Shown in pieces: positions 6,808-9,122 of a stretch of DNA of 64,000 nt; positions within the stretch are counted from its first letter, which is position 1; the number at the start of each line of letters is the position of its first letter. The stretch spans positions 700,984 to 764,983 of the forward strand of contig NZ_BBXE01000013.1 in the NCBI RefSeq assembly GCF_001570565.1, given 5' to 3'. The notes below the pieces were generated by a model. That model had not been told where the DNA came from, searched no databases, and saw only the letters and a list, made by a program, of their open reading frames with translations. Position numbers and translations under genes: made by a program. Origin of the DNA: Herbidospora yilanensis (lineage in GTDB: Bacteria; Actinomycetota; Actinomycetes; Streptosporangiales; Streptosporangiaceae).

Positions 6808-7797
6808 ATGACCACCTCTGCCGACCCTTTGGAACGCCTGGGCCTCACCAGGGCCCAGACGGCGGTGTACGAAACCGTCCTGCGGCTGCACCGCGCCACC
6901 CTCCCCGAGATCGCCCAGGCCGCCGACGAGCCCGCCGACGAGGTGGCCGCCCGGCTGGCCGGCCTGGTCCGGCTGGGCGCGGTCGACGAGCAGGCGGGCG
7001 AATACCTGGCCCGCCACCCCGCCGCCGCCATCGGCCGCCTGATCGCCGCCCGCCTCGACCGCCTGGCCGAGGAGAGCCGCCAGATCGACGAGGTGCTCGC
7101 CTCGGTGGGCGGGCTGACCCTGACCTACGACGCCGGGCGCGATTATCAGGACCGCCGGTTCCCGGTGGAACTGGTGAACGGCGCCGACGAACTCTACGAG
7201 AGCGTGATCGGGCTGGCGCTCCAATCGCCGCCTTCTGATCTGGTGACCGCGATCCCCGATGAACGCAGTTTGACGGATTTCATCCGAAAATATGCCGACA
7301 CGTGGATCGAGGCGCTCAAAAGCGATCTCCTTTCCGCCCGTGCGGTGATCCCCTCGTCCGCCCTCTCGATGCCCGGAATGCGCGACTCGCTCGACCGGCT
7401 CGCCGCCGCGGGGGCGGGCATCCGGGCCCTCGACCGTGTACCGAGCTGGTTCTTCGCGATCGGCCACGACGCCGCCGGCCTCCCGGCCGACTGGGGGGTG
7501 TCGTTGCCCGGCAGCGCATACAACTGTTACCTGGTCAGGGCCCCGATCGTGGTGGGCGCGCTGCGGGCGCTGTTCGACGAGATGTGGCAGCGGGCGGTGC
7601 CCGTCCGGCACTCTCCGGGGGCCGTTCAGGTCCTCAGGCTGGCGTCCCAGGGGATCTCCGACGACACCATCGCCCGGCGCCTGGGGCTCTCGGTCCGGAC
7701 CGTCCGGGCCCGCTTCGCCGACGCCATGGCGGAGCTGGGGGCCCAGACCCGCTTCCAGGCCGGGGTGGAGGCCGCCCGCCGGGGCTGGTTGTCCTGA
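6808..7797 (+). CDS. TrmB-like / LuxR-type transcriptional regulator
   Basis: A 329-residue regulator with two helix-turn-helix regions. The N-terminal ~75 residues (LGLTRAQTAVYETVLRLHRATLPEIAQ) resemble the TrmB winged helix. The C-terminal ~60 residues (VLRLASQGISDDTIARRLG, then SVRTVRARFADAMAELGA) form a LuxR/GerE-type HTH. The middle ~180 residues, with FIRKYADTWIEALKSDLLSA and a PLD-like fold seen in TrmB relatives, may bind a ligand or receive a signal. Such TrmB-LuxR fusions are numerous in Streptosporangiales and usually of unknown target. It is divergent from guaB and followed by a DUF5319 gene. Confidence 0.82.
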   Translation: MTTSADPLERLGLTRAQTAVYETVLRLHRATLPEIAQAADEPADEVAARLAGLVRLGAVDEQAGEYLARHPAAAIGRLIAARLDRLAEESRQIDEVLASVGGLTLTYDAGRDYQDRRFPVELVNGADELYESVIGLALQSPPSDLVTAIPDERSLTDFIRKYADTWIEALKSDLLSARAVIPSSALSMPGMRDSLDRLAAAGAGIRALDRVPSWFFAIGHDAAGLPADWGVSLPGSAYNCYLVRAPIVVGALRALFDEMWQRAVPVRHSPGAVQVLRLASQGISDDTIARRLGLSVRTVRARFADAMAELGAQTRFQAGVEAARRGWLS

Positions 7798-7845: not shown

Positions 7846-8223
7846 GTGCTGGAAGACGTCCCCCGCGACCCGTTCGCGGACGACCCCAACGACCCCGCCG
7901 TGGAGCTGGGCGAGCTCGACGACCCCGAGCCGCTCACGATGGCCGAGCGCGACGAGGCCCTGACCGACCTCGCCGACGTGGAGGTGTTCCGCTCCCTGCT
8001 CGAACCGCAGGGGGTGCTCGGTCTCGTGCTCGACTGCCCGGAATGCGGCGAACAGCACTACTTCGACTGGGACCTGCTCCGGGGCAACCTGCGCCAGATG
8101 ATCGACAACGGCCGGCCCCAAGTCCACGAGCCCGCCTTCCAACCCGACCCCGCCGACTACGTGAGCTGGGAGTACGCCCGGGGCTACGTCGACGGCGTCA
8201 TCGACACCGAAGAGAGCCGCTGA
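7846..8223 (+). CDS. DUF5319 family protein
   Basis: A 125-residue acidic protein with GTG start. It matches the DUF5319 family, whose mycobacterial member (Rv3412) occupies the same place beside guaB and sigD. It has a Cys-x2-Cys pair (LDCPECGEQHYFDW, residues ~64-77) that may be a half zinc site. The C-terminal segment reads [19 protein letters not shown]. No membrane segment is seen and its function is unknown. Its last 40 bases overlap, in the opposite direction, the end of the 53-codon mini gene downstream of the sigma factor. Confidence 0.85.
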   Translation: MLEDVPRDPFADDPNDPAVELGELDDPEPLTMAERDEALTDLADVEVFRSLLEPQGVLGLVLDCPECGEQHYFDWDLLRGNLRQMIDNGRPQVHEPAFQPDPADYVSWEYARGYVDGVIDTEESR

Positions 8224-8345
8224 GCTTCCTGAATGCTGTCAACATCGGCGATCAGGGTCTTCAGAACCAGGATCGCCGGATCGGCTGACCGCACCACCTC
8301 GCGCCGGGCCAACGCGTCGAGCACGGCGTCAACGTCGATTGTCAC
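8184..8345 (-). CDS. 53-residue RsdA-like mini protein, candidate anti-sigma peptide
   Basis: A GTG at 8345 overlaps the TGA of the sigma factor gene (GTGA), the coupling usual for sigma/anti-sigma pairs, and the frame ends with TAG at 8184. The product has 53 residues. Its core, [14 protein letters not shown] followed by [15 protein letters not shown], resembles what I recall of the sigma-D-binding N-terminal region of the anti-sigma factor RsdA (Asp-rich start, LDALA-R helix, ADP turn, second helix). In mycobacteria the gene at this place (Rv3413c) is a ~300-residue membrane protein. Here there is no transmembrane helix and no outer domain. The homology rests on memory of the family and needs a profile search. 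The 3' 40 bases overlap the DUF5319 gene tail to tail. Confidence 0.65.
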
Positions 8346-8986
8346 GCAATCGACTCTAGCTCCGCCATCTGACGGAGCCGGGCAAGAGCACGATGCTGGG
8401 CCACTCTGACCGCGCCGGGTGACATGCCGAGGACGTTGCCCGTCTCCTCCGCCGACAACCCCGAGACCACCCGCAAAATCAGCAGCTCCCGCTGGTTCTC
8501 CGGCAGCCGCGACAGCAGCGCGCGGGCGTGTTCGGCCTCGATGTAGCGCACCACGGTCTCCTCGGGCCCGGGACCCTCGTCGGGCCCGTCGGGGAGATCC
8601 TGGGTCGGCACGGCCGACCGCACCGAACTGCGCAGCGCGTCGGCCACCTTGTGGGAGGCGATGCCGAAGACGAACGACGCGAACGGGCGGCCCATGTCCC
8701 GATAACGCGGCAGCGCCGAGAGCACCGCGATGCAGACCTCCTGGGCCACGTCGTCGGCGTTGTGGTAATGCCCCGAAACCCGGCCGAGCCTGGCTCGGCA
8801 ATAGCGCACGACCATCGGCCGGAGCTGCGTCAGCAGCCTCTCGATGGCGGTGCGGTCCCCTGTCACGGCCAGACTGGTCAGCTCCCTGAGGTCGGACTCC
8901 TCCGGCCTCACGTCGACTCTGGACCCAATCGCAAGCCTTACCCCAGTTGCGGCGTCGGCGACGCATCCCTCGGTCACGTTAGGCAT
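8342..8986 (-). CDS. RNA polymerase sigma factor, SigD/ShbA-like ECF family
   Basis: A ~214-residue ECF-type sigma factor. Region 2 contains [34 protein letters not shown] and [19 protein letters not shown]. Region 4 contains [18 protein letters not shown] and [17 protein letters not shown]. Sequence and position (next to guaB, DUF5319 and groEL) match SigD of Mycobacterium and ShbA of Streptomyces; ShbA drives transcription of the principal sigma factor gene hrdB. The start is uncertain: ATG at 8986 gives a length like SigD (212 aa), while GTG at 8911 ([11 protein letters not shown]) is a shorter option and in-frame ATGs exist further upstream. No strong ribosome binding site decides. It is coupled to the mini gene downstream. 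Confidence 0.85.
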
Positions 8987-9122
8987 GATGCCCGCCACAC
9001 AGAGAACTGTCGTCATGGTGAACGGATACGGATTGGTCACATTGGGGCGGCGATAACCATAAGTAATCGCACGAACACCCGACGGTTTTGGACATTTCAC
9101 TAATACGTTGAAATTGCTGTAT

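Follow-up and report, generated by a model that had tools for sequence, protein, structure and literature searches.

The window analyzed here is a stretch of 64,000 nucleotides of Herbidospora yilanensis. It contains a gene coding for an ECF sigma factor of the ShbA/SigD type (8342..9016, minus strand, with the ATG at 9016 as its likely start), and directly behind it, in the position of RsdA, a short RsdA-like gene of 53 codons plus stop with a GTG start (8184..8345, minus strand). The sigma gene product contains Sigma70_r2 and r4 domains and scored 283.9 bits with the ShbA family model of NCBIfam (NF007230), above its cut-off of 209; in a search of the PDB it retrieved 3vep_D, which is region 4 of SigD (E 1.1e-13). 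These matches bore out the assignment to the SigD/ShbA type that had been made for this neighbor of the short gene in an earlier note on this DNA. Convergent with the short gene lies a gene coding for a DUF5319 protein (7846..8223, plus strand; PF17252, E 3.5e-51). On that flank the neighborhood continues with a regulator gene (6808-7797, plus strand), whose product combines a TrmB-like N-terminal part with a LuxR-type C-terminal DNA-binding part, and with guaB; the other flank carries groEL (PF00118) and a frame that reads like groES (putative).

The sigma gene and the short gene overlap in the four bases GTGA (8342..8345, minus strand): the GTG start codon (8345-8343) overlaps the stop codon TGA of the sigma gene (8344-8342) within the sequence GCGTGA. 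At its other end, the stop codon TAG of the short gene (8186-8184, minus strand) lies inside the 3' end of the DUF5319 gene, and the two genes share 40 bases, both stop codons counted. The product has 53 residues and no membrane helix, the highest mean Kyte-Doolittle hydropathy over 19 residues being 1.27; both the transmembrane helix and the outer domain of RsdA are absent from it. The earlier note had claimed the start/stop overlap, the 40-base antisense overlap and the lack of a hydrophobic helix in a 53-residue product, and all of this was confirmed.

The kinship of the short product with RsdA was assessed with family models and with profiles built from the locus itself in related genomes, where the frame behind the sigma gene is either similarly short or long. 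PF16751 (RsdA_SigD_bd) was the sole Pfam match of the short product, with an E value of 0.0049 and 17.6 bits, below the gathering score of 26.7; this score was also missed by L072 and L164, two of the order's long forms, with 17.5 and 17.7 bits. At E<=1, PF16751 matched 23 of the 30 short forms, that of the window among them (best 1.7e-6), and 23 of the 41 long forms (best 4.2e-19). It was the only Pfam family recurring among the short forms, and at the same threshold the short forms of Embleya, Yinghuangia and G208 gave no match to it. A match of the short product to a PTS model of NCBIfam (E 0.023) was chance-like and was discarded. Since the PF16751 match was under the cut-off, an independent profile was built from the N-termini of 33 long frames of the same locus, all short forms being excluded; one of the 33, L096, is truncated at a contig end. 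With this profile the product of the window scored 25.2 bits and 29 other short forms scored 32.6-48.5 bits, whereas none of 4,729 control frames taken from these loci exceeded 10.1 bits and none of 2,060 shuffles exceeded 13.4 bits.

Searches of the PDB pointed in the same direction. A single-sequence phmmer search (52 aa) retrieved neither RsdA nor 3vep, only a tryptophan dioxygenase (E 2.6), and a profile was therefore needed. Profiles of 30 short forms, run against 177,635 PDB sequences, placed 3vep_X first (E 0.009 for the set of named loci, 0.057 for the initial set), and the long form L108 found this chain at E 2.1e-21. Both partners point to the same PDB entry, the short-form profile to 3vep_X and the sigma factor to 3vep_D. 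In addition, column information in 60 long and 76 short forms was correlated over 38 columns (Spearman 0.80). AlphaFold2 predicted for the short product two helices (residues 5-13 and 23-46) followed by a loose tail, with a mean pLDDT of 81.3. When this model was compared with 350,542 chains by Foldseek, the RsdA chains of 3vep occupied ranks 1-3, at an E value (1.3) that is not significant alone; by VIA-align against 17 chains, 3vep_X came first with a Z of 3.6, likewise not significant alone (38 residues, 2.8 A), and below it stood unrelated needle proteins with Z of 2.5 and lower. The columns common to the long RsdA-like forms, together with the AlphaFold2 model, delimit a candidate sigma-binding core of two predicted helices (residues 5-37; 8235..8333, minus strand).

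These results support that the core of the short gene shares descent with the sigma-binding end of RsdA, a kinship for which the earlier note had proposed a profile search as a check. That note had described the retained part as a sigma-binding helix-turn-helix: its identification with the sigma-binding segment of RsdA stands on homology, but the predicted fold is a two-helix hairpin and not a DNA-binding helix-turn-helix. The short form resembles RsdA (Rv3413c type; PF16751, 3vep) in its place behind a SigD/ShbA-type sigma gene, in its two helices and in the core D-x-LLDAL-xx-R ... DPA-xx-LL-xAL-xx-DVD, and DUF5319 often lies beyond the long forms too (38 long-form loci). It differs from RsdA in lacking the transmembrane helix and the outer domain, in staying below the Pfam gathering score and in carrying a tail that is antisense to DUF5319. 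As it lacks the membrane part and falls short of the Pfam cut-off, the short gene is set outside RsdA in the strict sense.

A missing membrane part might also mean that the gene is split, with the membrane and outer parts encoded elsewhere, joining the peptide and preserving the sensing function, as is possible for a partner without RsdA sequence. No second RsdA-like stretch was seen in the genome (next E 0.63), among the 150 of 646 first-look candidates that were scored in a search blind to an outer part without an RsdA core, and we consider a split gene very unlikely. A search of the same genome with PF16751 at E<=0.001 gave nothing, and since 14 controls likewise gave nothing, it was uninformative.

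The 53-residue query was then compared with 345 genomes of the order, and matches were obtained in 121 of them at E<=0.01, those in genera g1, g2 and g29 extending to the last residue of the query. A total of 211 loci were read behind the sigma gene (30 and 100 from genome searches, 80 named loci and the window, with several genomes repeated). A complete RsdA-like frame of <=135 residues was present in 94 of them and a longer one in 61; seven ran off a contig end, and 49 had no match, defined as nothing >13.5 bits near the sigma stop. Without duplicates the 94 short forms were reduced to 77, and to 74 after removing two from Streptomycetaceae and L110, which looks short and reads as a frame-shifted long form. 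The 74 unique sequences are 49-130 aa long and cover 11 named genera (Herbidospora, Acrocarpospora, Microbispora, Planotetraspora, Nonomuraea, Streptosporangium, Planobispora, Sphaerisporangium, Sphaerimonospora, Microtetraspora and Sinosporangium). The first start codon was located 1 base before the sigma stop (GTGA or TTGA), as in the window, in 65 of the 74, and the 3' geometry relative to DUF5319 was identical in 70.

With events placed on a sigma tree, the 74 unique sequences gave an omega of about 0.27: of the single-base events, 317 were synonymous and 186 non-synonymous, where 31% synonymous would be expected at kappa 2. The figure is flattered by the dropping of 214 multi-base events. 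In 45 of the 77 short forms (six groups), pN/pS was 0.10-0.47 for the short gene vs 0.02-0.06 for the sigma gene; between Herbidospora and Acrocarpospora the values were 0.34 and 0.07, respectively. The two other frames of 12 Herbidospora and Acrocarpospora sequences gave 1.2 and 2.6 and contained stops. Residues D22, L28, D34 and V35 were invariant in 30 aligned short-form rows. From the conserved frame, pN/pS and omega it follows that the short gene is a conserved coding gene under moderate purifying selection. The survey of the orthologous locus and of its ratio of synonymous to non-synonymous change, which the earlier note had suggested, thus found the frame kept across relatives.

The 12 residues at the C-terminus (8187..8222, minus strand) are of another kind. 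Comparison of loci revealed that the last residues of the short product are an antisense reading of the C-terminus of DUF5319 in 70 of the 74 short forms, this tail being absent from the other four (L046, L047, L050 and L061); the view of the short product as an RsdA remnant therefore holds for its core but fails for its tail. The stretch SSVSITPST in the tail was considered as a functional motif and rejected, as it is the antisense of the DUF5319 motif GYVDGVID. This motif was present in 84 of 91 short-form loci. In the long-form loci, which have no overlap with DUF5319, it was partially conserved (22 of 38). A tail dictated by DUF5319 and a 3' geometry shared by 70 of 74 short forms would fit a frame that serves only coupling or termination between the sigma and DUF5319 genes, with the peptide as a by-product. 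However, the selection on amino acids sits in the core, outside the overlap, and the core is kept in the four short forms with a different 3' geometry, which makes this explanation extremely improbable.

The distribution of the gene was examined in the 80 named loci. The short form was found in 31 of them, from the 11 genera listed above, and two further short forms belonged to Streptomycetaceae; 18 loci had a complete long form (including L145, a metagenome bin labeled Streptosporangiaceae), five ran off the contig and 24 had no match. These 24 comprise two loci that end too soon, one of Nonomuraea endophytica with a displaced core, three metagenome bins, and 18 loci of Nocardiopsis (12) and relatives. 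Long forms with a membrane helix occur at the same place in Actinomadura, Thermomonospora and Actinoallomurus, plus families farther off, and the form of Actinocorallia populi is intermediate, being 149 residues long and carrying a membrane helix at about 85-103. No RsdA-like gene was found behind the sigma gene in the 12 named Nocardiopsis loci. ShbA of Streptomyces belongs to the same sigma family (NF007230), and unlike in Herbidospora, no RsdA-like gene was found behind it in the three g87 loci analyzed (L098-L100; g87 is presumably Streptomyces). In L060, L181 and L069 the RsdA core was unrecognizable between the sigma and DUF5319 genes, with a spacing as tight as in short-form genomes. 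These are perhaps recent losses, and the core thus appears dispensable in some lineages. In Nonomuraea endophytica (L166 and L049), an A-, G-, P- and S-rich insert of ~190 residues precedes an intact RsdA core and tail.

In Embleya and Yinghuangia (L200, L202 and L211-L217), the ShbA gene is followed by a short RsdA-like gene peculiar to them. When the Embleya-type frame was compared with 249 genomes sampled from the family of Embleya, seven matches from two genera were obtained at E below 1e-10, all seven directly beside the end of the sigma gene; the other matches were chance-like (E >=0.0019), in a search whose single-sequence query would miss distant forms. DUF5319 was not found within 3 kb beyond this short gene (L200 and L202).

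Several of these observations bear on the possibility that the short gene is a decaying relic, that is, codons left after a deletion that drift and do nothing. The missing core in L060, L181 and L069, the absence of the gene from the 12 Nocardiopsis and three g87 loci, and a pN/pS above that of the sigma gene would agree with decay. Against it stand the omega value and the four invariant residues, the -1 start in 65 of 74 sequences, the retention of core and tail behind the insert in Nonomuraea endophytica, and the separate short form in Embleya/Yinghuangia. A relic is accordingly judged quite unlikely.

A tree of the sigma factors was used to follow the reduction. It contained 102 rows after removal of near-identical ones, nine other loci of unclear state and L110 having been left out; it is a quick tree, in which 50 of 99 inner branches are open, and it carries two known label errors: hydropathy led to L058 (98 aa, short) being labeled long, and L166 was labeled empty owing to the position of its core behind the insert. 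The short forms, except L061 and the Embleya pair, fell within a 16-row set (SH-aLRT 98) that includes L181, with its lost core, and the two mislabeled rows. The pair of Embleya and Yinghuangia (99) was placed outside a 60-row Streptosporangiales set (99), and its short form is apparently a second, independent reduction. L061, a short form with another 3' junction, is perhaps a third reduction event. Judged from these sequences, reduction of RsdA seems to have happened more than once. In the simplest history, one deletion would have taken out the membrane and outer parts and run the frame into DUF5319, where it would have ended by a stop opposite a tyrosine codon. The two lineages without the gene, the Nocardiopsis group and g87, have long stems in this tree (0.37 and 0.41), which would fit a faster change of the sigma factor after the loss of its partner.

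Just upstream of the likely sigma start there is a conserved block, TGTGACCAATCCGTAT (9026..9041, minus strand), a candidate control element of the operon. Its pattern, TGTGACCAATCCGTA(G/T), was found in 91 of the 94 short-form loci (duplicates included), in 32 of the 68 loci whose form is long or cut off, and in 20 of the 49 that are empty. In the genome the exact pattern has a single occurrence, and the block was not found in the four of its six RpoD-like loci that were searched (L234-L237; given strand, with upstream parts possibly incomplete). The looser block GTRACC-N-WTCCGTWG is conserved, yet it lies closer to the likely start than would suit an ordinary -35 element. A promoter of the sigma-D type upstream of the sigma gene was also considered, using the consensus GTAAC then GAT as given in PMC6338062, and rejected: among 111 loci it was present in 1 of 69 short (a class that still included contig-end fragments), 1 of 18 long and 7 of 24 empty ones, and there was none in the window.

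Based on its kinship and conservation, we consider it highly probable that the short gene codes for a soluble anti-sigma peptide, one that descends from a membrane-bound RsdA whose transmembrane and outer parts were deleted and that would bind and inhibit the sigma factor. The earlier note had read it as an anti-sigma factor reduced to its sigma-binding part, without a sensor, and its kinship with RsdA and its conserved frame support this reading, binding being the step we infer. Just as RsdA folds on region 4 of SigD, the two helices would fold onto this region in the sigma factor translated from their own message, and the bound peptide would keep the sigma factor from RNA polymerase. Coupled translation would hold peptide and sigma factor near one to one, and release would depend on turnover of the peptide or on the sigma factor outgrowing it. 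Since sensor and anchor are absent, such a release would set a threshold, above which alone the sigma factor would be free, and would not answer an envelope signal. In Corynebacterium glutamicum, RsdA is reported to be anchored in the membrane and to be cleaved by MarP and Rip1, with ClpXP completing its removal according to the model proposed there (PMC11175481). In species with a full RsdA, regulated proteolysis releases a cytosolic fragment, to which the short form would correspond; site-1/site-2 proteolysis itself would not apply to the short form, as there is no membrane part to cut.

The absence of a sensor, coupled translation and a near one-to-one supply would also suit a permanent partner that binds the sigma factor and does not inhibit it, either a chaperone or stabilizer or an adaptor for another regulator. 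However, the homologous segment of RsdA belongs to an anti-sigma factor, and deletion of rsdA is reported to raise sigma-D activity in C. glutamicum (PMC11175481); a non-inhibiting partner is therefore rather unlikely. Among known soluble anti-sigma factors, NepR, of class II, is small, cytosolic and without a membrane part, and the short product resembles it in these features. No entry for NepR appeared in the Pfam and NCBIfam output or in the Foldseek and VIA-align lists for the short product, all of them general searches. NepR is described as embracing EcfG and being removed by PhyR (PMC8103513). The same review states, citing Pinto and da Fonseca (2020), that soluble anti-sigma factors can arise by truncation of membrane ones. 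The short gene would follow this evolutionary route in a reduction down to ~50 residues. The name RsdA has no occurrence in the text of that review consulted (PMC8103513), and a literature search, mostly of papers available without subscription, found no description of a soluble short RsdA nor of truncation for RsdA/ShbA. New here are the second short form in Embleya/Yinghuangia, the absence of the gene from 12 Nocardiopsis loci and the origin of the tail as antisense DUF5319. Such genes are small and possibly under the Pfam cut-off, and may therefore be missed in annotation.

A broader reading, whose chances we judge to be even, is that on at least two occasions, perhaps three (in the Herbidospora/Nonomuraea/Streptosporangium clade, in Embleya/Yinghuangia, and in the G208 lineage with the other 3' junction), a membrane stress sensor was reduced to a free sigma-binding peptide, and that it was then lost entirely in Nocardiopsis and Streptomyces. 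These would be stages on the way from an envelope-stress sigma factor to a growth-linked one, which in Streptomyces drives the principal sigma gene, and the peptide would act as a sensor-less homeostat fixing the level of free sigma factor. How ShbA-type sigma factors are controlled is treated as an open question in PMC9205884, and according to PMC6295645 deletion of the ortholog in S. lividans was unsuccessful and the gene may be essential. A natural inhibitor of 50 residues, if true, would offer a testable answer as to how ShbA-type sigma factors are restrained in this clade; it would also define the smallest sufficient RsdA and show a stress pathway dismantled stepwise.
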